From the IMG/VR virus record IMGVR_UViG_3300025073_000115, positions 1-34,263 of that record: a DNA stretch of 34,263 nucleotides; one strand, 5' to 3'. The stretch comes from a virus. Made by a program: the position numbers and the translations under genes. The notes beneath the pieces are model-generated. The model had not been told where the DNA came from, made no database searches, and saw only the letters and a program-made list of their open reading frames with translations. The stretch's first letter is position 1. Every line of letters starts with the position of its first letter. This document shows, piece by piece, positions 2,628 to 34,146 of the stretch.

Positions 2628-3065
2628 TTAAGATGTGAGATTAGTGGTAAAGCCAATAATCCCTAAAATAATAAATGTTATGATCGCTCCTATTAATCCT
2701 CCCCATAATTTTTGATATTTACCATCTTTTATAATAATCATTAAATCTTTTTTTGTTACCATATTTTCTTTTAATGTTAAAGTCTCAACTATATTATTTT
2801 TAAGTTTTTCTGTTTCTTTGCCATAATTTTGTAAAAACTCATTAAATTTAGCCATCATTTCATCAAGTTTTTGAGGGATTAAATTAAAAGGTATAATTTG
2901 CTTTTCTAATGAAGCCAGTCGTTCCGAAAGAGATAATTCTAGCACTTGTATTCTATTATAAATATCATGTTTAGCTTCATGGAGCTTTAAGAGATCAGAT
3001 TTAAACTCTTCATGATCTTTTAAGTTTTGATCTAATTTATCTTTCTGTAAGCATGGATTTGACAT
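2628..3065 (-). CDS. Coiled-coil protein with C-terminal membrane anchor, lysis-associated
   Basis: The start is taken at MSNPCLQK (3065), one base after the TGA of the upstream gene, giving 145 residues. An upstream ATG at 3107 would lie inside that gene. Residues about 8-115 are charged and helical with heptad-like leucines (IQVELSLSERLASLEKQ). Residues about 121-139 (WGGLIGAIITFIILGIIGF) form one membrane helix, followed by TTNLTS. This plan resembles small XhlA-type phage proteins that sit beside holins and endolysins. The match is by architecture only. Its place just before the endolysin supports a lysis or cell-envelope role. Confidence 0.7.
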   Translation of the reverse strand: MSNPCLQKDKLDQNLKDHEEFKSDLLKLHEAKHDIYNRIQVLELSLSERLASLEKQIIPFNLIPQKLDEMMAKFNEFLQNYGKETEKLKNNIVETLTLKENMVTKKDLMIIIKDGKYQKLWGGLIGAIITFIILGIIGFTTNLTS

Positions 3066-3066
3066 T

Positions 3067-4131
3067 TCATAAATATAGTTTATATAACACGTCTGGGGCT
3101 CTATCATTCAATCCATACACCGTATTAACCTCGCCAAATCCTGCCATGAATTTAGTTGTTGCCCCGAAATTATGATTAGAAGTTGATTGCTGTGTTCCAG
3201 CAAAATTATATTTAAAATAATCTGTAGCGGTACTTACATAAATATAATTAGTATTCGCTCCTATTGCACCACCAAAACTTGGTGTCCCCGCTAAAGCAAA
3301 ATCTGATGCGGAATCTAACGTTGTTCCATTAATTGTAAGTCTTCGTATATCATAATCATTAGCTGTATTCCCTGCTTGTTTCGTGAAAAATAAATAAGTG
3401 CCATCAGTAAACATGTAAGTCGCATCTGTCGTCCCGAAACCTGCATATGTCATTTGAGTCCCACCTGCCGCTAAGTCATCTTTATCGTATCTATACACTC
3501 TATGCAATGGAGCTCCATTATCTCTTAATAATACATATAAATAATCGCCTATTACAGCGACCCCTCTAATAGCATCCGCAGCCGCCCAATCTGAAGTAAT
3601 AGCTCTTATATCTGGTGCACTATTAACATGATACATAGTTAATGAAGTCGTGTAAGCGTTAGGGATATGTTCTGTGTTGTCGGTATAATAAGGCATTGTA
3701 TCAGTGGGGTTATTTTGATCCCAGAACCAAGGAGCTGGCAACCCGAAAATTCCTTGATCGAAAAAAGAATTATTTGGCTTACTCATTAACTGGAAATTTG
3801 TACCATCATGAGTTAAAATTACAACCTGTCCATTCCTAATTGTACTAGGAGAAATTTCATTTCCACTTACATCTTTAATGGCGGTCGCCCCTATTGTATT
3901 AACATTAACGGTGCATGCTCCAGTATTGGCAAAATTAGCTTTAAATTTAATTGTAAGTCCAGCTTCATAGGCTGTAATCTGTGCATCAATAGCCACGACA
4001 TAAGCATTCGCTGAACCTGTGGACACGACATAATCACCACCACACACTAATACGTCTTTACGAAGATTATTAAAGTGAGTAGCAAGAATATCCTGACCTA
4101 AAGTTACCTGTGATGAATCAAGAACACTCAT
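3067..4131 (-). CDS. Tail fibre / tail-tip protein (354 aa)
   Basis: The N-terminal third contains a beta-rich module seen in many phage tail and adhesion proteins: YVVSTGSANAYVVAIDAQ, then NVNTIGATAIKDVSGNEI and GQVVILTHDGTNFQLMS. The C-terminal two thirds repeat short strands ending in tyrosine or aromatic residues (GDYLYVLLRDNGAPLHRVY, DGTYLFFTKQAGNT, NTNYIYVSTATDYF). The spacing is like a small beta-propeller, which could be the receptor-binding head. It lies between another fibre-like gene and the lysis module. Receptor and fold are inferred; structural-protein status is well supported by context. Confidence 0.7.
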   Translation of the reverse strand: MSVLDSSQVTLGQDILATHFNNLRKDVLVCGGDYVVSTGSANAYVVAIDAQITAYEAGLTIKFKANFANTGACTVNVNTIGATAIKDVSGNEISPSTIRNGQVVILTHDGTNFQLMSKPNNSFFDQGIFGLPAPWFWDQNNPTDTMPYYTDNTEHIPNAYTTSLTMYHVNSAPDIRAITSDWAAADAIRGVAVIGDYLYVLLRDNGAPLHRVYRYDKDDLAAGGTQMTYAGFGTTDATYMFTDGTYLFFTKQAGNTANDYDIRRLTINGTTLDSASDFALAGTPSFGGAIGANTNYIYVSTATDYFKYNFAGTQQSTSNHNFGATTKFMAGFGEVNTVYGLNDRAPDVLYKLYL

Positions 4132-4133
4132 GA

Positions 4134-4697
4134 TTAAGAGAAAGTAAATGTAGATTCTACTGTTAGCGTTTCAGTTACTGCCTTGGAAACTGAAATTAAA
4201 AAACGTGAAAATAACTGCCCTGTATTAGCACTTGCAGCGCCATCAATAAACCAGCCTGCTTCTGCATAAGTACCCGAAGTTTCAGTTGCAGTGTAGAAAT
4301 TACTTATATAGGCTATATTGCTTGCTGATGTTTGACTTGACGTAGCTTTTCTGTACGTCTCAGTCCCAAGTGTTGTGTTACTATTAGCTGGCGAAGCGCT
4401 GCCTGAGCCTAAAGCCCCATAATTAATAATTCCTGTATAAGTAGTAGTATTAGCTAGTCTTTGAGCTAGTACTGATCTTCCTGCCGTAGGAATAATATTT
4501 TCATATAATGTTTCTCTTTTTTGACAATGTTTTTTAAATTCTGTCCAGTGATATTGAAAAGCTTCCCATGATAAATTACCTTGACCAAGGATCTGTTCAA
4601 GTTCTTTAGCTATTTTATTTAAAGGTTTGCAAATCACGAAATTATGCAGTCCTTTAATTCCTGCTAGTTCCTTGTTTTTTCGTAAATGATTGAGCAT
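4134..4697 (-). CDS. Virion protein, fibre-like (187 aa)
   Basis: The first 68 residues or so are polar and helical (ELEQILGQGNLSWEAFQYHW). Residues about 70-187 form a Thr/Ser/Ala-rich beta domain (TTTYTGIINYGALGSGSASP, YAEAGWFIDGAASANTG) ending in VESTFTFS. This second half resembles beta-rich domains in tail fibre and baseplate proteins of uncultured phages. The start codon directly follows a hairpin at 4698-4727 that carries an element shared with two other late-gene starts. Two bases separate it from the next fibre gene. The exact role is unknown. Confidence 0.65.
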   Translation of the reverse strand: MLNHLRKNKELAGIKGLHNFVICKPLNKIAKELEQILGQGNLSWEAFQYHWTEFKKHCQKRETLYENIIPTAGRSVLAQRLANTTTYTGIINYGALGSGSASPANSNTTLGTETYRKATSSQTSASNIAYISNFYTATETSGTYAEAGWFIDGAASANTGQLFSRFLISVSKAVTETLTVESTFTFS

Positions 4698-4727
4698 AAG
4701 CCAAGAGATTATGAACCTCTGGGGCTT
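4698..4727 (-). promoter_or_regulatory. Leader hairpin with shared element, copy 1
   Basis: On the minus strand the shared element reads AGAAGCCCCAGAGGTTCAT. Its own 3' partner gives a broken stem: AAGCC, two unpaired bases, AGAG, a nine-base loop, CTCT, one unpaired base, GGCTT. The ATG of the 187-residue gene follows immediately. A small CTTCT/AGAAG stem lies just upstream. Matching elements occur at 13520-13539 and within 23455-23491. Confidence 0.5.
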
Positions 4728-4772
4728 CTACTATTAGAAGTATACTTAGAAAAACAAAAGTAATCAATATTT

Positions 4773-7700
4773 TTATTCGTAAGCACCGACTCCATATACT
4801 GTTTGAGATTTTGTTGCGTCTGTTGTATACATATAATCAAATAAAACATCACCAGACGCTGTTGTATCTGTAGTATTAACAGTAAGATATTGTAATGTAA
4901 TTGTTTGAATATTCGTGATATCAAAACTTCCTGACTCAATATAGTCAGGATCGGTTAATTTAAATTTAATTTGACGCCATAATTCAGACACGGCAAGATA
5001 ATCATTTAAATTCAAAAATACTCGATAATCCAATAAAGGATTAGTCGCATGACTCGAAAAATAAATTCTTAAATCTTTAATTTTAGCTTTTACCGAATTA
5101 TCTTTTACCTTAAACCAATAATTTATAAATTTATCCGTTAAATTAACAGGGCTAGCTAAGTTAATATACATATAAGTGCCAGCAGATACAGCCGTTTTAT
5201 TTAATGATAATGAGGCTGTTGTATCAATGTGTTCATCGGTTACTGTTGTAATCGTACCATTAACCGCAGTCCAACCGCCTGCAACATCTAAACCGTCAAT
5301 AATATCACTAGCACTTTCAGGCTGGTATTTGTTGGTTTTATCCTTTTCCGTCTCATCACTGGAAGTTGTTGTTTGTGTCTCAGTTGATGTTACCTGTTCA
5401 GTCGCTCCTGTTGTATGGCTTTCACTTATCGTTATAATAGGAAATTCGCTTTCGACTAATTCAATCACAGCGTTATCAACAACAAAAGCCCCTGATATAG
5501 TTGTAGACAATTTTTGGAAATATTCGATTATTCCAAATAAAGTGGTAGCACAAGTAACTTTGCATTTCATGTAATCTTGATTGTATTGTTTGGCTACTTT
5601 CTGAATTAATAATTCTTCAAACATAACTTTATTTGAATCTTTGATTGTCATTAATTGCCCTGCTTTTAATCCATCAAAATCAGTATCAAAATTAATTGTA
5701 ACAACAGGATTCTTATATTGATCTACTTCTGCCCTTGCCCTATCTCTAGCGGCAGTCCTTGAATCCAAACTATTGTCATCAATCTTAGCTCCATCGAATT
5801 GACCGTCCCCATGTCCTAATAACAACCTCATTCTTGTAATTGACGTATTGTCTTTATATTGAGTTACAATATCAATTTTTTCTGTATATGTAAATAAAAG
5901 GAAATCGGAAGTGGTAAGTGTTGTAGTGGCATCAGTTGCTCTAATAGACTTTTCAGAGAAATTCGAGACATAATTTACGGTTGTTTCATCAACTAAATTC
6001 TCCACTCCAACGGTTTGAGTTGATGCGAATTTAGAAAAAGTGTCACCATTAGTTTGGCTCGTTACAGCTTCAACAGTGAAATTATCATCATTAACTTTTG
6101 TGATTTGTCTAACGGCATTTGATCTTGTTCTATTAACAATATAATCACCTGTAATTAATGCGTGTGCTGTGGCTGTAATATTAGTTGTGGTAGTTCCGCC
6201 TTCACAAGTATCTATACTAGTATTATTATCTAATTTAATAACTAAATTCTTAAATTTATTCTTTAATATCCATTCCCTAACTGCATTATCGCCTTGAACG
6301 ACTTGTGAATAAGTAGAAGCTGAATCTTCTGTCCCACCTGCTACAGTTTGAGCATTTTTCAATTGTGAAGTGTCAATATTAACACTTATATTATCACCAT
6401 TATAGAATTTATTTGAAGCTTCAAGCATCCAGATAGAATCTATCGTTACATCAGGATCATTATTTGAATGAGTAAATTGAAAATCTACTTTCCGTATTAC
6501 TCCCCAGTCTGGAAGTCCTGTTGAAGTAAAAGCGGACTTAGCAATTAATAGTTTATTATATCCAAGTTTTAAATTCGTAGTCCAACTATAACTAAAATAA
6601 TCCACGCCTGAATTAGTTGAAAAGATTAAATCAATTGAAGTTGGTACTGTGTTCTCAATATATACATGAATCATTATACGATCACTAGTAGGACTTGTAG
6701 TGCCGTCTTCTCTTGTGCTTAGATTATAAGTTCCTGTGATAGTTGTTGGCGTTGCACTTGTAACAGTTTTCTGTGATTTATTCGCTGTAATGTACCATTT
6801 ATCATTGTTAGATAGAGTCCAGCCACTCTCACTCATGTCAAACAATAACTGTGAGCCATCTGATAATTGCCACGGCGCAGAGTCGCTATCCATTGATTTG
6901 AAATGTATATCCCTATCATAATCAATATACCAAAAATAAGAATTGAGTTTAGCGAGAGCATCTATTGTCGCCGTTGGTCTTTGAAAAGGAGCGGCGAAAC
7001 TATCTAAAGTTGCACCAGCTTCAAGATTAAAGAAAGTAAAGAAATCATCTTCATAAATTCGCCAATTATCTATTGTAATTATTCCGCTTGCTGTTTGATC
7101 TATAGCTAAAGCAATTCTAATTATAGCCGTCCAATCAACCGTTCCAGCTGTAAAATCAGCAGTTTTTGACATGTCAATTTCACAAAAATGCCAATTACCA
7201 TCAGGAAATATAGGAGTTAAATACCAACCTTTCATGTTTGTAATTGCGGCATCACTAGAACAATATAATCTAATAGATGTAATAATATTAGTTGATGGGA
7301 ATTTAATCCATAATCCCATTTTACCTTTTGTCGGCTGTCCAGAACTTACTCCCACATACGAAGAATAATCTGTACTAGATAATGTTAATCTATAATCTGC
7401 TGCTCCACTGGCATACACCCAAGAAAAAACACCTGATGATGTCCCATTACCATTAATTATGTCATTTGTATTAATAATAGGTAACGCGGCATCATTAATT
7501 ATTCCCCATGCGGATTGAATTGCTCCATCATTAGCATAATCCATCGTATCTATAATCATATTCATGTTGTTCAGGTCTTCGGTTACGAACCCCACTATTA
7601 TCTGTCTTGCGTTTTTATTTTCCCAGCTGTCATTAACCTCTTTTCTGTCAAATTCTTTTGTGAAATCGATACACTGCACGCTATACGCCACATTTTCCGA

Positions 7701-23722: not shown

Positions 23723-24013
23723 TTAATTATTAATTTTCTCATACGCTCTACTATCCTTGCGAATAATAGGTTCTTTTGGCTGGGTAACGGTATTAATTCT
23801 TGGTACTCCCTCAACCGTTTCAACCTTAGATCGTAAACTCTGCGGAATCCCTGTAATAGTAGGAAGTGGTGTTTCGCCTTTAAGTACAGCCACGTTAATT
23901 CCTCTGCAATTTTTCACTTTTATTCTCTCTATAGTATAACTCTCATCATCACATACTCCAAAATTATATACTGTACCTTGATAAGGAATAGATTGTATTG
24001 ATTTAATTTTCAT
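23723..24013 (-). CDS. Intein C-fragment fused to the MuF C-terminal part (96 aa)
   Basis: Residues 1-35 are a split-intein C-fragment: MKIKSIQSIPYQGTVYNFGV, then CDDESYTIERIKVKN. The YQGTVYNFGV stretch is intein block F, and KN before Cys36 is the C-terminal splice junction. The 35-residue length is like the DnaE Int-C. Residues 36-96 are C-extein: CRGINVAVLKGETPLPTITG and a polar tail to the stop. The extein Cys-Arg completes the MuF His-x-Asn-Cys-Arg motif whose first half is in the gene at 24605-27406. Two key intein positions are unusual: block F lacks the typical His (Glu there), and the residue before the final Asn is Lys. The peptide alone would have no enzyme activity. Confidence 0.9.
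   Translation of the reverse strand: MKIKSIQSIPYQGTVYNFGVCDDESYTIERIKVKNCRGINVAVLKGETPLPTITGIPQSLRSKVETVEGVPRINTVTQPKEPIIRKDSRAYEKINN
23909..24013 (-). other. Split intein, C-fragment (Int-C, 35 aa)
   Basis: Splice junction is predicted between Asn35 and Cys36; the Cys codon is at 23908-23906. The fragment has its own ATG at 24013, 39 bases from the oppositely oriented HNH start. Confidence 0.88.
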
Positions 24014-24052
24014 GATGTCGTAGTATGAAAGTGGTTAATAAATATAATTGAT

Positions 24053-24649
24053 ATGCAAATTCAATGTCGTATTTGTGGAAGGTTTCGTAATCGTAAACCT
24101 TCCGATCAGCACCATCTTTGTTCTTTCAAATGTAGGGATCAAAGCCGTTTTCTTCAAATATGTCATAAATATTCCCCTCAGTATTATAAAGAACTTTATA
24201 TAGAAAAGAAATTGTCTTTTCGCAAAATAGAAGCTTTGGCTGGAATTAACGTTAAAACATTGAGAAAAATCTTTCATTATTTGAACATACCTATAAGACA
24301 CGGATCGGAAGCCGTAAAAACTCAATGGATTAATAATCCCGAAAGAAGAAAGCAAGCCTCTGAAATAATAAGTAAAGTAAACCCAAACAGAGGTAGAACA
24401 TTGCCTTATCATAAGCTTATTTGGACAAAACAACACCAAAAATGGAGAAAACTTATTAAAGAACGAGATACTTATACTTGCCAATCCTGTAAATGCACTG
24501 GAAATAGATTGCACGCACATCATGTTAAAAATATTATTGATTTTCCTGAATTAAAAAATGATTTAAACAATGGAATCACATTATGCGATAAATGCCATGG
24601 CAAGCTACACTCCCAAGAGAGACTCAGTCAAAACATCTCCAATAATTAA
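24053..24649 (+). CDS. Free-standing HNH homing endonuclease inside the split intein
   Basis: 198 residues on the strand opposite to its neighbours. An N-terminal zinc finger (CRICGR ... HHLCSFKC, residues 5-27) is followed by a helix-turn-helix (LSFRKIEALAGINVKTLRKI, about 54-73), a NUMOD-like linker (SEAVKTQWINNPERRKQASE) and the HNH domain about 131-187. Within this are CQSC (143-146), HAHHV (154-158), an Asn-rich NDLNNGITLC and CDKCHGKLH. The HHV, N and H residues give a full HNH active site. The domain order is that of phage homing endonucleases. Its 3' end overlaps the Int-N frame by 45 bases, and its start is 39 bases from the Int-C start. It probably cuts intein-less alleles of the MuF gene. 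Confidence 0.92.
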   Translation: MQIQCRICGRFRNRKPSDQHHLCSFKCRDQSRFLQICHKYSPQYYKELYIEKKLSFRKIEALAGINVKTLRKIFHYLNIPIRHGSEAVKTQWINNPERRKQASEIISKVNPNRGRTLPYHKLIWTKQHQKWRKLIKERDTYTCQSCKCTGNRLHAHHVKNIIDFPELKNDLNNGITLCDKCHGKLHSQERLSQNISNN

Positions 24650-27406
24650 GTTTTTTGCCTCTCTCCATTCATCATTAATCCAAAACTTATGTTCCGGTGT
24701 GCACTGAATCATGGTATTATCTTCTAATGTTATTTGAAGAAGTTCTCCTTCATAATAACGTGACATTGTGTGATACACGCCTTTCCAATTATCTAAATGA
24801 GTAGCCACAATGTCATCCACTTCAATATCTTCTATAACCTTACTGCCTTGAGCTGTCAGCACACGAGACCCAGCAATAAAACAATTCTGATGTACTGCTC
24901 CCATTTTAGCAAAAGGATCTGATGGCTTCATAATACGTCCATCAATAGACATACAAAAATTACAGACTTTATTATCTAAAATTTCACTTCTTTGGATTGC
25001 ATAAAAATCATTTCTAAAAGTATCATAAACAATATCCCTACCTCTATTTATATTTTCTATTGGTATATATCCAATAATTGATTGATTCCCTTCTTTAGCT
25101 TTTTTATCAAATATATCTTTAGCCACGGCAATTGCCGCGACCGCTCCAATACCTTTTAGCAAGGATTCTCTAATACTACTCTTAACATCAGAATCAATAT
25201 TTTGTCCTCTTTTAGCTAATAAATCGTCAATTTCACCATTAATTGTTTGAGGGTATAGATTTGGAGTTGTAGGTTCATTTGTTTTCAATTCTTTAGCTGA
25301 ATTTTTTTTGCCAAAAGCTAAAGCGGCTAGAGCTGCCGTCTTAATAATCGTCTTCATCTTATTAGTTAGCTGTGTTGACTGTTCATTAATTGCCTTTACA
25401 TCTTCATTATATAACGCTTTTTCTAACTTACTAAAAAATAAAGTTTTCTGTTGTGCTGTTAATTCTTCTAATTCACTTGCTAACTCTTTTTCATTCCTAT
25501 CTAAGTATTCTTGTATCGCATCAAAATCAATTTTCTTTTCTGCTAGAGTTAAAACACGATTCAAATCTTTTTGTGCTTTTTTGTCCCATTTAGAAAGTTC
25601 TTCTAATTGTTCAATATCTTTTTTTTTTAAATTTTCTAAATTTCCATTAGTTTTATTCTTTGGAATACCTAATGTACAAACAAAATCAAAATCTTCACTT
25701 GCTTTACCTTTTCTATCATCATAAGCCCAGTTTTTAAGACTAATATATGCCTTTGTTCCGCACGTCTTACCATTACTATCTTTTATAATATTTTCCCCTC
25801 CTAAATTCGCCTTCATTCTATTTACAAATGAAATAGTTCTGCTGGCATCCCTTATATCTTGAGCATTCCAGTCTTCCTTCTTTTTATTTAATAATCTCAA
25901 ATTTCTTTGAATTGGCGAGCGGTCTAAAGAAGCTAACTTACTACATTCTGTTTCGCTCCATGCCTGCAATTCGTTTGCACTCATATTAATTGTATTTTTG
26001 TATTTCGTAAAAACATCATCTAATTCAGCAAATTTTTCTTCTTCCGATATCTCTTCGTCTTCTTTTTTGCCTTCTTTTTCTATATCATCTTCATCTCCTT
26101 CATCTTTTTTTTCAGGTTCTTCAACTACATCTTCCTTATCTTCTTTTGGTTTTTCGATAGGGCTTTTAATTTCTTCTTCCTCTTCTTCACTTAATATAGG
26201 GAGCTTAAACGTTGCCCTAACTTGTTTCTTTAATTTTGGTTCTACATCAAGTAACGAACCTTCAATTGCTAATTTAAGAGATTCTACATACTCTTTAATG
26301 TTTTTATCTTCTATATCTCCATGAGCTAACTTCACGAAATTCTGACCATCACTGAACCCATTATATTCCATTTCTTTTATTAAATGATTAAGTGGCCAGA
26401 TTAGATGTTCAATTACATACAACAATAAAAGTTTGAAATCTTTGCTAAAAGACTGTCCTAGTGCTTGAGTGCCATTTGTTTCTCCAAGTGATATATGTTG
26501 AGCTAGAATACTCTGAGCTATCATTCTATTGTGATGAATAATATTATCCATACTAGATTTAGCTTCTCCACTTGTAGGAGCTGTAAGGAAACTAAACTTA
26601 ACGTTTTCTTTAACTTCATTGCTATTTGGATCGAGTCGCCCTTGAAATGCTCCAAAAGCTTTTTGATTTGATATTATGTTTTTTAAAAAATCAACTAATT
26701 TAGATTTAACTGTTTGATCTACATAATGAGCCATAGGTATACCAGCTCTAAACCTCTCATTTGCCACCATCTCAATTTTATAAAGCAAATTCTTCATTTT
26801 CCAGTGAATATAAGCCGCACGAATTAATGGTATTCCTGATGGATCATCTCCTTCACTATCAAAAGTAAATAAAGATAATTTATAATTTGGAATAGAGAAC
26901 TGTGAAGTCTTAACTAAACTCGAACTAATTAATTGAGTAACCCCAGCCTCACCGTTCTCCATCTCCCACTTATAATGTGCGGAAGCTAAACGTGGAGCGA
27001 GTTTATTCAAAACTAAAACACCATCCTCTATTTTCCACACTTTCTCAAAATACATAAATCCAAAATCCAACATAACTAAAGCTTGTATTAATATTCGTTT
27101 AAAATTATTATTTTCAAATAGATATTTTTTAACAAATTCTAAATGTTTTTTCTGTAATTCGTCATTCTCGTCTTGAACAACTAAAAACCAATCAATATTA
27201 ATTATTGGCATTTTAACTGCACGCAGAACAGCGGCGACCTGTCCATCATTCCGCATTTTTAATACTGTTTCGATTCTTTTATCATCTCTCCAATCACTGT
27301 TATAATCATTGTTAATAAACCCTGAAAAAGCCTCAAGACCTGAGTTGCCTAATTCTTTAGTTGCATCTTTTTTTGAGAATAAAGGAAATAAATCAATAAA
27401 TCCCAT
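24605..27406 (-). CDS. Portal / MuF head-morphogenesis fusion ending in an intein N-fragment (933 aa)
   Basis: Residues about 1-400 are a Mu gp29-like portal: SDWRDDKRIETVLKMRNDGQ, VMLDFGFMYFEKVWK, ASAHYKWEME, PSGIPLIRAAYIHWKMKNLL and HHNRMIAQSILAQH. An acidic linker (about 405-465) leads to a small domain about 472-565 (NMSANELQAWSETECSKLAS, RTISFVNRMKANLGG), seen in other phage proteins but of unknown role. A charged helical segment follows, and then the MuF domain about 690-841 (YAIQRSEILDNKVCNFCMSI, DGRIMKPSDP, GAVHQN). C842 begins the intein: CFIAGSRVLTAQG is block A and MIQCTPEHKFWI is block B. The frame ends in TAG after 92 intein residues. Trans-splicing to the product at 23723-24013 would give 902 residues. 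The start has no SD. Confidence 0.92.
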   Translation of the reverse strand: MGFIDLFPLFSKKDATKELGNSGLEAFSGFINNDYNSDWRDDKRIETVLKMRNDGQVAAVLRAVKMPIINIDWFLVVQDENDELQKKHLEFVKKYLFENNNFKRILIQALVMLDFGFMYFEKVWKIEDGVLVLNKLAPRLASAHYKWEMENGEAGVTQLISSSLVKTSQFSIPNYKLSLFTFDSEGDDPSGIPLIRAAYIHWKMKNLLYKIEMVANERFRAGIPMAHYVDQTVKSKLVDFLKNIISNQKAFGAFQGRLDPNSNEVKENVKFSFLTAPTSGEAKSSMDNIIHHNRMIAQSILAQHISLGETNGTQALGQSFSKDFKLLLLYVIEHLIWPLNHLIKEMEYNGFSDGQNFVKLAHGDIEDKNIKEYVESLKLAIEGSLLDVEPKLKKQVRATFKLPILSEEEEEEIKSPIEKPKEDKEDVVEEPEKKDEGDEDDIEKEGKKEDEEISEEEKFAELDDVFTKYKNTINMSANELQAWSETECSKLASLDRSPIQRNLRLLNKKKEDWNAQDIRDASRTISFVNRMKANLGGENIIKDSNGKTCGTKAYISLKNWAYDDRKGKASEDFDFVCTLGIPKNKTNGNLENLKKKDIEQLEELSKWDKKAQKDLNRVLTLAEKKIDFDAIQEYLDRNEKELASELEELTAQQKTLFFSKLEKALYNEDVKAINEQSTQLTNKMKTIIKTAALAALAFGKKNSAKELKTNEPTTPNLYPQTINGEIDDLLAKRGQNIDSDVKSSIRESLLKGIGAVAAIAVAKDIFDKKAKEGNQSIIGYIPIENINRGRDIVYDTFRNDFYAIQRSEILDNKVCNFCMSIDGRIMKPSDPFAKMGAVHQNCFIAGSRVLTAQGSKVIEDIEVDDIVATHLDNWKGVYHTMSRYYEGELLQITLEDNTMIQCTPEHKFWINDEWREAKNLIIGDVLTESLLGV
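24608..24883 (-). other. Split intein, N-fragment (Int-N, 92 aa)
   Basis: Begins at Cys842 (codon 24883-24881), exactly at the MuF His-x-Asn-Cys motif. Block A is CFIAGSRVLTAQGSKVIEDI; block B is ITLEDNTMIQCTPEHKFWI with the usual Thr-Pro-x-His. No endonuclease domain follows in frame. Its stop codon lies inside the 3' end of the opposite-strand HNH gene. Confidence 0.92.
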
Positions 27407-27870: not shown

Positions 27871-28806
27871 ATGGCAGAAAAGGTTTTCGCAACACATTAT
27901 GGTGATTTAGAAATTGCTCATCAAAAAATACCATGTGCTGTATTAAATAATGGCAAAAGAGTATTAATTCAAAGAGAGGTTGTAGGCTTATTAACAGGAA
28001 ATAAAAAAGGAGGATTCGACCGCTATTTAATGGCTTCAAATCTACGTCCGTTTGTTCCTGAACGCCTTTTAGGTCAAAGTCTCGACCAGAGCATGAATAA
28101 GATTTTATATAAAGGGAAATCCGCTCAGGCATTTGATGCTACAGATTTGATTGATTTATGTGAAATGTATTTAAAAGCTAGAAATGCTGGCGTATTGTTA
28201 AAATCACAAGAGAAGTTAGCTTTACAAGCAGAAATTATTATTAGGTCATTTGCTAAGGTAGGTATTATAGCCGTTATTGATGAAGCGACAGGTTATCAAA
28301 AACAAAAAAATGAATATCAGAAAATTTTAGAATTATTTATTGCAAAAGAATTGCAACCTTATATATCTACTTTTGATGAAAATTATTACAAGCAACTTTA
28401 TAGATTACTAGGATGGAGCTGGGACGCTTTTAAAAATAAGAAGAAAAATCATCCTCAATATATTGGCAGACTTACAAATAGATTGGTTTATGAAAAACTT
28501 GCTCCAGGTGTACTTGAAGAATTACAAAAATTGAATCCAAAAGATGATAAAGGTAGAAGAAAGCATAAAAATTTCCAGTTTTTGACAAGTAATCATGGCT
28601 ATAGAGAATTATTAAGACATATAGCTTCAATAAGCATACTGATGGAACAATTCCCTAATGAGCAGCTTACAGAAGCAATTAGCAAAATTGATGCTCGCTT
28701 TCCTTCTTATACGCCAATATATCAAACAAGTATGGATTTTCCTGTAGTGAGTACGGAGATTTTCAATAATGCTATTGCTAAGGCTTCATTAAATGTTGGC
28801 AACTAA
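27871..28806 (+). CDS. P63C-domain protein, IS passenger (311 aa)
   Basis: The C-terminal half matches the P63C domain: ISTFDENYYKQLYRLLGWSW, HPQYIGRLTNRLVYEKLAPG, VLEELQKLNP, KGRRKHKNFQFLTSNHG and a final helix about residues 250-275. The N-terminal part (VFATHYGDLEIAHQKIPCAV, VLIQREVVGLLTGNKKGG) recalls the KilA/Bro-like regulatory proteins to which P63C is often joined. P63C proteins occur in phages and mobile elements; their molecular role is not established. The gene has an AT-rich leader with TATAAT-like sequence (27832-27850) and lies between the IS terminal repeats, so it travels with the transposase. Confidence 0.85.
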   Translation: MAEKVFATHYGDLEIAHQKIPCAVLNNGKRVLIQREVVGLLTGNKKGGFDRYLMASNLRPFVPERLLGQSLDQSMNKILYKGKSAQAFDATDLIDLCEMYLKARNAGVLLKSQEKLALQAEIIIRSFAKVGIIAVIDEATGYQKQKNEYQKILELFIAKELQPYISTFDENYYKQLYRLLGWSWDAFKNKKKNHPQYIGRLTNRLVYEKLAPGVLEELQKLNPKDDKGRRKHKNFQFLTSNHGYRELLRHIASISILMEQFPNEQLTEAISKIDARFPSYTPIYQTSMDFPVVSTEIFNNAIAKASLNVGN

Positions 28807-29637
28807 AAAATGAAAAACTGATTTGTAAAATCTATTATTGTATCTCCAAGCAAATTCATTCACATATTGTTGAAGATATTTAGGAGATACGGCGTGATAA
28901 GTACCATCTATAGATCTTTTAAGTTGAGACCAAAACCCTTCAATAGTATTGGTGTAAGCTAAACCATTCACCCATTGTCTGGCTCCATGATTAACTTTTT
29001 GATGATTATATTCTGTCATTGTGCCATAACTTTTATATTCATCAGTCATTAGATTAGCTCCAATTTTCAAATGGTTTTTAATAAATGGCTTAATAACAGA
29101 TGATTTTGTGTGTTGTGTGACTTGAGCGATAACAGAACCTTGTCTTTCTACAATACCGATCACAGGAGTTTTATTTTCAGCTCCTCTCCCTCTTTTACCA
29201 CCTCTCTTTTTACCTCCAATATAAGTTTCATCTGCTTCGGCGGTATTATCTAATTGCTTGCCGTTCTCTTCAAATAACATTCTGATTTGCTTTGCAATTC
29301 TCCAAGCCGTTTTGTAAGTTACTCCTAATTGTCTTTCTAACTCCTTTGCTGATACTCCATTTTTGGATGCAGAAAACAAGAAGATAGCATAGAACCATAA
29401 TCTGATTGGGGTATCTGACTTGTGAAAGATAGTATTTGCTAAAGGATAGATCTGATTTGCACAAAATTGGCAAGCATAACATTTTCGATTATTGACTTTA
29501 TAATACTTAAAAGGTTTTTTGCATTCTGGACATTCTTTTAAACTACCAAATTTCTTATTAAAAATCTCTGCAATACAAGCGTCATCATCAGGATATTTTT
29601 TATTGAAGTCGTTGATTGTAAATTTATTAGACAACAT
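28789..29637 (-). CDS. IS1595-family transposase (ISXO2-like), 282 aa
   Basis: An N-terminal zinc ribbon (CPECKKPFKYY ... CYACQFC, residues 36-59) is followed by a helix-turn-helix region (KNGVSAKELERQLGVTYKTA) and an ISXO2-like DDE core. Catalytic residues: D136 in AEADETYIGGKKRGG, D199 in LMTDEYKSY, and the NTIEGFWSQLKR segment (N230, E233). The family usually carries D-D-N/E. Length, motif spacing and zinc ribbon are complete, so the enzyme may be active. Start at the ATG at 29637; no SD. It converges with the P63C gene, overlapping 18 bases. Confidence 0.93.
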   Translation of the reverse strand: MLSNKFTINDFNKKYPDDDACIAEIFNKKFGSLKECPECKKPFKYYKVNNRKCYACQFCANQIYPLANTIFHKSDTPIRLWFYAIFLFSASKNGVSAKELERQLGVTYKTAWRIAKQIRMLFEENGKQLDNTAEADETYIGGKKRGGKRGRGAENKTPVIGIVERQGSVIAQVTQHTKSSVIKPFIKNHLKIGANLMTDEYKSYGTMTEYNHQKVNHGARQWVNGLAYTNTIEGFWSQLKRSIDGTYHAVSPKYLQQYVNEFAWRYNNRFYKSVFHFLVANI

Positions 29638-32285: not shown

Positions 32286-32589
32286 TTAATTTAAATTTTA
32301 AATAAATTAATGAATTAATGTTTTGGTTTGGATAACACTCATTTAATATTTTCTGTAAATCTTGTGTTGTAGCTATTCCCTCATTATTTAATATTTCTTC
32401 ATTAATTTCTTCTAATGCAAAATTTTCTCTTTCTATTATGATTGCTTCAATATAATGATGTCCACAGGTTAGTCTCACCACATCTCCCACATTCATATGG
32501 TTTTTTAATCTCAAAGTAGAACATTTTTGTCCTTCTTTAATCTTTTCAAACAAATGTTTTTTAAAAAATAATAATTGCTTATTAGACAT
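32272..32589 (-). CDS. ASCH-domain protein (105 aa)
   Basis: The start is placed at MSNKQLLFFKKHLFEKI (32589), overlapping the upstream gene by eight bases; a start at 32634 would overlap it by 53. The protein has the ASCH pattern: FKKHLFEKIKEGQKCSTLRL, a GDVVRLTCGHHYIEAIIIER strand pair, then a charged helix and YLKFKL near the end. ASCH domains fold like PUA domains and are thought to bind RNA or modified nucleotides. Its role here is unknown. It lies in a cluster with ABC/GNAT and ParB-like genes upstream of the terminase. Confidence 0.8.
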   Translation of the reverse strand: MSNKQLLFFKKHLFEKIKEGQKCSTLRLKNHMNVGDVVRLTCGHHYIEAIIIERENFALEEINEEILNNEGIATTQDLQKILNECYPNQNINSLIYLKFKLNDTN

Positions 32590-33625
32590 AAGTGAAAGAA
32601 TAAGTGTATTTATTTTTACTTTGTGCCATACCAATCATTGTTGTTGTTGATGGAATCATATGTCCTTTTCTTTTCAAGATCCAATTTTGTGAATTATATA
32701 AAGCTTTAACCATGGCAAAATTAGAAGTAGTCAAAAACATTTTGAACTTTTCTATTTTATACTTTTGGCAAACAGTATTCAAGAGCAATTTACCAATGCC
32801 AATTCCCTGATAATCAGGCAAGACAACTATTCGATGTATTCTCTTCATCATTTTACTTGATGGATGAGGAAAATGAATAACAGCACAAAACCCTACAATA
32901 ATATTATCTAAAATTGCGACATAGCAAGCTGCCGTCTTCAATAACGAAGAATCTAAATAATGAAATTTGCTAAACATTCGCCAAAAACTTCTTTCGGCTT
33001 GATAAATATAGAGTTGTCTTGTTTGTCTTTTTTTTTTCTCTAATGTTAATTCCATAACATTAGTATCATATATCCAATCTGTATCTAAGTAATACAGCAC
33101 GTCTTCATGACAACTTATCAGGAGAAGTTGTTTATCAATTTTGGGAAGAATTTTATTAATTACTTGGCACATCGTAATAGCAACATTCCGATCCACAACA
33201 CTAGTAAATTCATCAAATACAATCATTTTTTTCGCTGATAATAACGCTAAAGCTAGATCTACACGCATTTTTTCACCGTTAGATAAAACTTTATAGGGCT
33301 TTAACCAACTTTTTGGCGAAGCAAATCCTACAAGCGTTAATATGTGAGTTATTTCTTTTAAAGATGTTGTTTTTTCAAATAAATCTAATATAGACTCATT
33401 ACCTAATTTTTCCTTAATAACGTCAACATAATTAAATATTTCTTTTGCTAAAGTGGTTTTGCCAGTGCCTGAATTCCCAACAATAACCCCCAATTTCCAT
33501 TGCGTAGGTAATTCTACGTTCCATTCTTCTTTTATTTCATTGTTTACAAAATCTAAATCATACTGTCCGATAACAGACTGATTCCTGAAACTATCAACAT
33601 ATTTACTTGTTTTAACAATTTTCAC
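32582..33625 (-). CDS. ABC-type ATPase fused to a GNAT acetyltransferase (347 aa)
   Basis: Residues about 35-190 are a soluble ABC ATPase: Walker A GNSGTGKTT (50-58), a signature LSNGEKMR (114-121), Walker B MIVFDEF (134-140) and the switch His in SCHED (H173). Residues about 200-340 are a GNAT acyltransferase with the acetyl-CoA loop RIVVLPDYQGIGIGKLL (265-281) and a following NFAMVKALYNSQNW helix. No membrane segment or transporter partner is present. Such fusions recur in phages beside ParB-like and terminase genes. Substrate is unknown; DNA-base modification (as with Mu Mom, a GNAT-fold protein) is one idea, not shown. It overlaps ParB by four bases. Confidence 0.9.
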   Translation of the reverse strand: MKIVKTSKYVDSFRNQSVIGQYDLDFVNNEIKEEWNVELPTQWKLGVIVGNSGTGKTTLAKEIFNYVDVIKEKLGNESILDLFEKTTSLKEITHILTLVGFASPKSWLKPYKVLSNGEKMRVDLALALLSAKKMIVFDEFTSVVDRNVAITMCQVINKILPKIDKQLLLISCHEDVLYYLDTDWIYDTNVMELTLEKKKRQTRQLYIYQAERSFWRMFSKFHYLDSSLLKTAACYVAILDNIIVGFCAVIHFPHPSSKMMKRIHRIVVLPDYQGIGIGKLLLNTVCQKYKIEKFKMFLTTSNFAMVKALYNSQNWILKRKGHMIPSTTTMIGMAQSKNKYTYSFTYV

Positions 33626-34146
33626 AAATTAAGAATTTTAGGATTTAAATTCATCCCCTGTAAAATATCAAATATGTTCTTGGATTCATCTTCACTTTCG
33701 CAATCAATATAAACTCTAAACACATCATCTAATGACTGATTATGATTGTTTTTTAACGGATCAGGATCTAAAGCCAATTGCGATAAATCGAATCCCGTTA
33801 AGTCCAAGTTCTCACTTGATAATTCCTTCAGCTCCTCAATAACCAAATCCATATCCCAATCGCCCATTTCAGCAATTCTATTATCTGCTAATCTCAATGC
33901 CTTAACCTCTTCATTTGATAAATTCTCCATCCTAACACAAGGAATTTCTTCTTTGTTTAATCCTTGCATAACAATAAGCCTGCCATGTCCTGCTATTACA
34001 TTATTTTTTTCATCAATTAAAATTGGAGTTGTAAACCCAAATTTTTCAATATTCTTTTTCAATAATTCAATCTGATTCTCAGGATGTTTCTTGGCGTTCT
34101 TAACATAAGGCTTTAATTCTACGATTTTAACATTTACGACTTTCAT
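33622..34146 (-). CDS. ParB/Srx-domain protein (174 aa)
   Basis: The N-terminal 90 residues form a ParB/sulfiredoxin-like domain: LKPYVKNAKKHPENQIELLK, KFGFTTPILIDEKNNVIAGH and GHGRLIVMQGLNKEEIPCV. The G-H-G-R motif at residues 53-56 is the phosphoryl/nucleotide-binding hallmark. LRLADNRIAEMGDWDMDLV follows, as in phage versions that are often fused to a DNA methyltransferase. Here the fusion partner is absent; the C-terminus is short and acidic. It overlaps both neighbours by four bases (ATGA), so the three are probably translated together. Its role in phages (packaging or DNA modification) is not settled. Confidence 0.88.
   Translation of the reverse strand: MKVVNVKIVELKPYVKNAKKHPENQIELLKKNIEKFGFTTPILIDEKNNVIAGHGRLIVMQGLNKEEIPCVRMENLSNEEVKALRLADNRIAEMGDWDMDLVIEELKELSSENLDLTGFDLSQLALDPDPLKNNHNQSLDDVFRVYIDCESEDESKNIFDILQGMNLNPKILNL

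Follow-up and report, generated by a model that had tools for sequence, protein, structure and literature searches.

We describe here a portal-MuF gene broken by a split intein, in a viral record of IMG/VR (IMGVR_UViG_3300025073_000115) whose whole length, 34,263 bases, forms the window of this analysis. The original prediction, made from the sequence of the window, saw a fractured gene in which two intein halves are encoded by separate frames and an HNH endonuclease gene runs antisense between them, and our results support this as the best reading. Beyond it, we observe that the nuclease lies in codon register with the intein frame, that relatives are mostly continuous inteins with a double-coded antisense nuclease, and that the same class occurs in cultured phages; split inteins and fractured genes were already known, as was the presence of inteins in this head gene. 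MuF inteins probably form a large class with an in-register antisense homing endonuclease, in which split inteins would have arisen at least twice by breakage of the frame, trans-splicing lifting the constraint of double coding, and the window would stand just after such an event. It is quite probable that the window holds a homing element of the phage MuF (minor head) gene which passed from a continuous, double-coded intein to its present split form.

The head genes of the window lie on the minus strand in a Mu-like order: terminase, portal-MuF, protease and capsid. The portal-MuF frame (27406..24605) has 933 codons, and the N-terminal intein half (Int-N) begins at its Cys842 (24883). The C-terminal half (Int-C) opens a separate gene of 96 residues (minus strand, 24013..23723), after which MuF resumes at CRGINV. 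The parts of the locus are the following (HMM, hidden Markov model; pLDDT, predicted local distance difference test, the confidence measure of AlphaFold; a hyphen within a motif marks the splice junction):

24884..27406, minus strand: portal-MuF N-extein, 841 residues ending in ...GAVHQN; PF06074 (Portal_Mu) E 2.6e-28, phrog_113 (portal) E 8e-42; the MuF tail aligns across the junction
24608..24883, minus strand: Int-N, 92 residues from Cys842, with a TAG stop at 24605-24607; TIGR01445 E 2.6e-4, MuF Int-N HMM E 1e-35 (built from six seeds, among them the window)
24053..24649, plus strand: HNH homing-type endonuclease gene, 198 residues, antisense to the intein in phase 0; PF01844 E 2e-6, phrog_8446 E 1e-19
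24170..24379, plus strand: putative DNA-binding module (..NIPIRHGSEAVKTQWINN..), HMM E 1e-33 (window among the seeds), aligning with the MuF-associated nuclease family
24479..24616, plus strand: HNH catalytic domain, PF01844 on residues 143-188, with CxxC, HH, N and CxxCH all present
23909..24013, minus strand: Int-C, 35 residues with its own ATG, MKIKSIQ...KVKN; HMM E 2e-20 (window again among the seeds), pLDDT >90 from residue 289 of the model; the 2LWY alignment extends into it
23723..23908, minus strand: MuF C-extein CRGINV..., 61 residues, with a tblastn alignment across the junction and the Asn-Cys (N-C) site as in all relatives
24038..24550, minus strand: probable relic of the former continuous intein frame, 513 nucleotides free of stops, antisense to the HNH gene
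24605, 24581, 24563 and 24551 (Int-N side) and 24035 (before Int-C), minus strand: in-frame stops of the relic frame

This anatomy bears out the sequence features of the original prediction. It had placed an Int-N of 92 residues at the MuF motif (HQN-C), which TIGR01445 and Hint/PT-HINT matches corroborate; an Int-C of 35 residues at the head of a separate gene, whose extein indeed starts with Cys-Arg; and a complete HNH gene between the halves, which does overlap the Int-N gene by 45 bases. The exteins were expected to rejoin as MuF (GAVHQN-CRGINV), and the joined end aligns with uninterrupted MuF proteins of Acinetobacter phages (E 6e-3, 30% identity). A failure of uninterrupted MuF relatives to align at the junction had been named beforehand as evidence to the contrary; the portal-MuF proteins of two other loci, L091 and L092 (...PPLHIN-CRS...), align straight through it. 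Against PF04233 (Phage MuF) the spliced window protein scores E 0.003 and 18.7 bits, below the gathering cut-off of 29.6, which its homologues L006, L052 and L184 pass. An exact-peptide scan of viral and genome contigs found no direct relatives of the 933-residue protein, and an Rfam search of the window found no RNA elements such as self-splicing introns.

A profile search with the joined fragments passes both intein cut-offs: Pfam Intein_splicing is matched at 39.8 bits (cut-off 35.8) and PT-HINT at 38.8 bits (cut-off 27.7). The top PDB sequence match of the joined halves is the BIL domain 2LWY, over residues 2-120; despite this match the window has Cys at position +1, whereas BIL domains of type A have no Cys, Ser or Thr there. 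The splicing residues are kept, namely Cys1 (C842), the block B TxxH motif (TPEH), the terminal Asn and the +1 Cys (KVKN-C). The penultimate residue is Lys, compared with His in the aligned relatives; a penultimate His is usual but not universal in inteins. AlphaFold was given an alignment of relatives and the window sequence translated as one chain, starting at Cys1, ignoring the stops and continuing as far as the C-extein. The resulting pLDDT exceeds 90 over most of residues 1-90 and again from residue 289 almost to the end of the chain, and stays below 50 in between (91-288). In the numbering of the model, residue 93 is the Int-N stop and residue 291 the Int-C start (ATG). Since these limits coincide, the confidently predicted HINT domain corresponds exactly to the two encoded halves. 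Foldseek returned gp41-1 (E 5e-6) and 2LWY as the top PDB matches of the model, and a model of L052, whose intein is continuous, resembles it in its pattern of confidence.

Wherever an antisense locus was examined, and the window is no exception, nuclease and intein are encoded in precise codon register (phase 0), and Int-N and Int-C lie in one frame. The intein frame is open throughout in 15 loci, with the nuclease wholly on its antisense strand: no antisense stops are observed, versus 3.4-12.7 expected from the Leu and Ser content of the nuclease and the codon usage of neighbouring genes. The probability of finding none ranges from 10^-1.6 to 10^-8.3 in these loci, some of which are close relatives, and for L059 codon usage comes from only 61 codons. 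Stops are as frequent as expected in three split loci (7 versus 5.3 in L023, 15 versus 12.8 in L051 and 8 versus 7.3 in L078), and neither the free-standing nuclease genes nor the sense-oriented nuclease of L058 are depleted in the codons that create antisense stops. Among relatives, changes concentrate at codon position 3 of the nuclease, so that the nuclease is the conserved partner and the linker needs only to stay open. Antisense stop codons provide a measurable constraint that vanishes on splitting. The arrangement is also an unusual natural case of an enzyme double-coded in full codon register against another functional frame.

The window lies between these two states, with 5 antisense stops versus 14.0 expected (P 2.7e-4); four of these stops face the last stretch of the HNH gene, and the fifth immediately precedes Int-C. 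As a control for codon bias, the counts for TTA, CTA and TCA are 4 of 28 in the HNH gene versus 556 of 1185 in the genome (Fisher P 4e-4). G+C content at third codon positions is 0.199 in the HNH gene versus 0.194 in the genome. Third-position composition equals that of the genome yet these codons are few, and we read this pattern as a fossil of recent double coding. The window appears as an intermediate, in which the register is kept, the HNH gene is still depleted in stop-making codons and five stops have appeared at the edges.

The nuclease is also tied to MuF through its N-terminal module (NIPIRHGSEAVKTQWINN in the window HNH protein), which is common to the relatives found. These were gathered by searches using the nuclease only, with no use of MuF, and all 19 distinct contigs with a module-bearing locus have it at a MuF gene. 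The module lies beside an uninterrupted MuF in eight contigs (L002, L012, L056, L060, L061, L063, L065, L066) and inside MuF inteins in 11 (L006, L011, L018, L023, L051, L052, L055, L058, L059, L062, L064). A scan using Int-N only added nine MuF inteins with the module, all antisense. Different catalytic domains accompany the module: the window and several free-standing copies have HNH, at least some of the intein-borne nucleases have a DUF559-like domain, and L058 has another nuclease type. When 396 genomes were sampled from each of the host phyla of L051 and L052, the search for the module returned only the seed genome each time; the module is therefore rare in the sampled bacterial genomes. 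The HNH protein of the window has the hallmarks of an HNH homing endonuclease, an HNH motif (PF01844) and a separate DNA-binding module. Together, the strict association of the module with MuF and the common insertion site suggest that conserved MuF codons are what the nuclease recognises. In three contigs (L060 at ~440-460, L061 at ~4620-4640 and L066 at ~60-80), the MuF gene beside a free-standing HNH gene has CCCTTTTG exactly at the HPF-CR codons and continues past it in the -1 frame; the pattern resembles programmed -1 frameshifting, or nuclease escape, at the target site. A related HNH domain is also seen in L003 (3068-6805), within an apparent in-frame intein of a head protease-like frame.

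All inteins occupy one N-C position of the MuF motif. Searches with the N-extein gathered 88 MuF loci, of which 78 run uninterrupted to CRC or similar, 5 carry an intein and 5 could not be classified. One empty allele is L092, a near-identical version of the intein-bearing portal-MuF of L058, with flanks 96-99% identical. The insertion separates AAC from TGC precisely; mismatches number 13 over the 50 bases immediately downstream and fall to near zero just past them. A precise empty site and raised divergence close to the junction are likewise seen in the Salmonella phage pair PK2/SETP13. The L058 locus (2652-5869) is itself a split intein in portal-MuF: its nuclease lies on the sense strand as an in-frame extension of Int-N, and the stop codon of this fusion shares an ATGA with the Int-C start. 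Other variations were observed: L079 (6001-7203) has a MuF intein at the same position with an apparent in-frame, sense-strand nuclease of the DOD/LAGLIDADG type; the terminase gene of the L006 phage (5495-7783) apparently also bears an intein (...IANGLVSHN-T...); and L052 (4137-6503) has a PBECR2 nuclease-like domain (E 7e-20) at the C-terminal end of MuF, placing its intein within a MuF-effector fusion.

Distant MuF inteins of phages richer in G+C (L081, L082, L083, L085, L086, L087) also have an antisense, in-register nuclease frame. L082 has no antisense stops versus 16.8 expected (P 2e-10); in the GC-rich L081, L083, L085 and L086 the chance of an open antisense frame is higher (P 0.04-0.31). 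Compared with GenBank phages, the antisense nucleases of L052 and L071 gave no match, and the diverged nuclease of L085 matched 64 and 87 records at two thresholds. The 87 records comprise 44 Salmonella, 15 Gordonia and 14 Pseudomonas phages and others; where a gene name is given, it is mostly that of a MuF-like minor capsid or head-morphogenesis gene. Salmonella phage PK2 has an intein of 272 residues in its MuF gene, with an antisense frame (no stops versus 7.3 expected), and Vibrio phage 1.197.A has none versus 12.0. Megablast with the PK2 gene returned 348 records, 58 covering most of the gene; of the others among the matches listed, most align in two pieces, as an empty allele would. For annotation it is of interest that most of the GenBank phages inspected have no gene called for the antisense nuclease within MuF. 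Since the class is found in phages that can be grown, double coding is directly testable.

From the anatomy, the register, the avoidance of stops and its relaxation, the common insertion site, the empty alleles and the association with MuF, all read in the sequences themselves, we infer splicing, cleavage, homing and a direction from continuous to split. A nuclease whose module is specific to the conserved MuF codons around (H/W)xN-CR would cut intein-less alleles, leading to the element being copied in, and the intein would render the insertion harmless by excising itself through splicing. Free-standing copies indicate that the nuclease can live beside MuF; intein-borne copies would be shielded through splicing. 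The ancestral form, retained by many relatives, would be one continuous intein with the nuclease encoded codon against codon on the antisense strand of its central linker. Antisense placement would let the nuclease remain a separate gene without dividing the intein, the cost being that three codons must be avoided. The double-coded frame of the window would have broken recently: stops stand at its two edges, and Int-C begins with an ATG. Its halves would now be separate proteins that must trans-splice to yield portal-MuF, and the split would free the nuclease from avoiding TTA, CTA and TCA.

Several points weigh against this explanation. Splits fall at least twice on our trees (L023/L051/L078, and the window with L058), which are short and unrooted. 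The window is the sole example combining an HNH gene with an antisense split, and its sister intein L058 (support 0.96), whose nuclease is sense-oriented, is split at a comparable position, so that the split in the window could predate its nuclease. The stop test hangs on codon usage from neighbouring genes (for L059, the few codons mentioned above), stops also serve to define the continuous and split classes, and the penultimate Lys in place of His may slow the final splicing step. The unrooted trees and the sense nuclease of L058 make a prior split with later arrival of the HNH gene the main rival: the portal-MuF intein would have been split first, in common with L058, and the antisense HNH gene would have landed between the halves with its register a coincidence, trans-splicing and homing still working. 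The sisterhood of the two inteins, their Int-C genes both beginning with MKIK, and the ATGA overlap behind the sense nuclease of L058 fit this order, which we nevertheless consider unlikely: phase 0 and the single frame of the halves would each be a one-in-three stroke of luck, and the HNH gene is depleted in antisense-stop codons while its other codons match the genome, a depletion that free-standing relatives lack.

The remaining alternatives concern the state of the intein and the nature of the open frames. An intein that is dead or capable of cleavage only, leaving a truncated portal-MuF and a C-terminal piece of debris, would agree with the penultimate Lys and the several in-frame stops; it is improbable given that Cys1, the TxxH motif, the terminal Asn and the +1 Cys are kept, that both halves stop at the borders of a domain predicted with pLDDT >90, and that the C-extein, 61 residues long, is intact and has its own ATG. 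A cis intein in simple decay is likewise unlikely, the halves being intact and neatly bordered. Joining of the halves into a cis intein by read-through or recoding could draw on their common frame and the stop-free 513 nucleotides between them, and we give it hardly any credence. Recoding of stop codons was rejected on the five in-frame stops (one TAG, four TAA), the normal use of TAA, TAG and TGA to terminate other window genes, and a tRNA gene search of the window that found none. The open antisense frames of relatives might, finally, be by-products of codon bias rather than double coding, and GC-rich phages do often have such frames open by chance. This is extremely improbable for the class, and already refuted for AT-rich loci, where the probability of finding no stops falls to 1e-8; it is 2e-10 in L082, free-standing homologues avoid no codons and intein motifs are conserved at both ends.

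In 2009 Dassa and colleagues reportedly described fractured genes, mostly of phages, in which split inteins accompany free-standing endonucleases, and are said to have proposed them as a link in the origin of split inteins; the host genes reportedly encode enzymes of DNA synthesis and repair. The window is alike in that a split intein interrupts a conserved gene and an endonuclease gene separates the intein halves. It is unlike in having a head protein as host and a nuclease that runs antisense in codon register, and in the existence of relatives that are still continuous and double-coded. The natural split inteins gp41-1 and NrdJ-1 (6QAZ, 6RIZ, 8UBS) share the fold and the approximate half sizes of the window's, from which they differ by low identity (~28% to gp41-1), the penultimate Lys of the window and its MuF host. 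In known inteins with a nested homing endonuclease (DOD, HNH), intein and homing nuclease likewise share one conserved site, and L079 looks like a sense-strand case of this in MuF; in the antisense class, however, the nuclease lies outside the intein polypeptide, on the opposite strand. As with collaborative homing and the free-standing homing endonucleases of phages (reviewed in PMC2988022), a free-standing nuclease is found beside a MuF gene that bears an intein in other phages; here, unlike there, one module is common to free-standing and intein-borne nucleases, and the path between them can therefore be followed. An intein-containing capsid morphogenesis protein has been noted in Jerseyvirus (PMC8425127), the group of PK2 and SETP13, an intein in the same kind of gene, with no mention of an antisense nuclease in the passages found. 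Our literature search found neither an antisense nuclease inside an intein, in register, nor a 'MuF' intein; Dassa 2009 and Pickard 2008 lay outside it, and an earlier report there is possible. For the origin of natural split inteins and fractured genes, the interest of the class lies in the free-standing, continuous antisense, half-relaxed and fully relaxed split forms found at one conserved site.

Two further features of the window were noted. An IS1595-family transposase gene (28789-29637) sits within the head-gene region, beside a P63C-domain gene on the opposite strand (27871-28806). Further along, a partial ABC-type ATPase domain is fused to a GNAT acetyltransferase domain (32582-33625) and adjoins a ParB-like gene (33622-34146).

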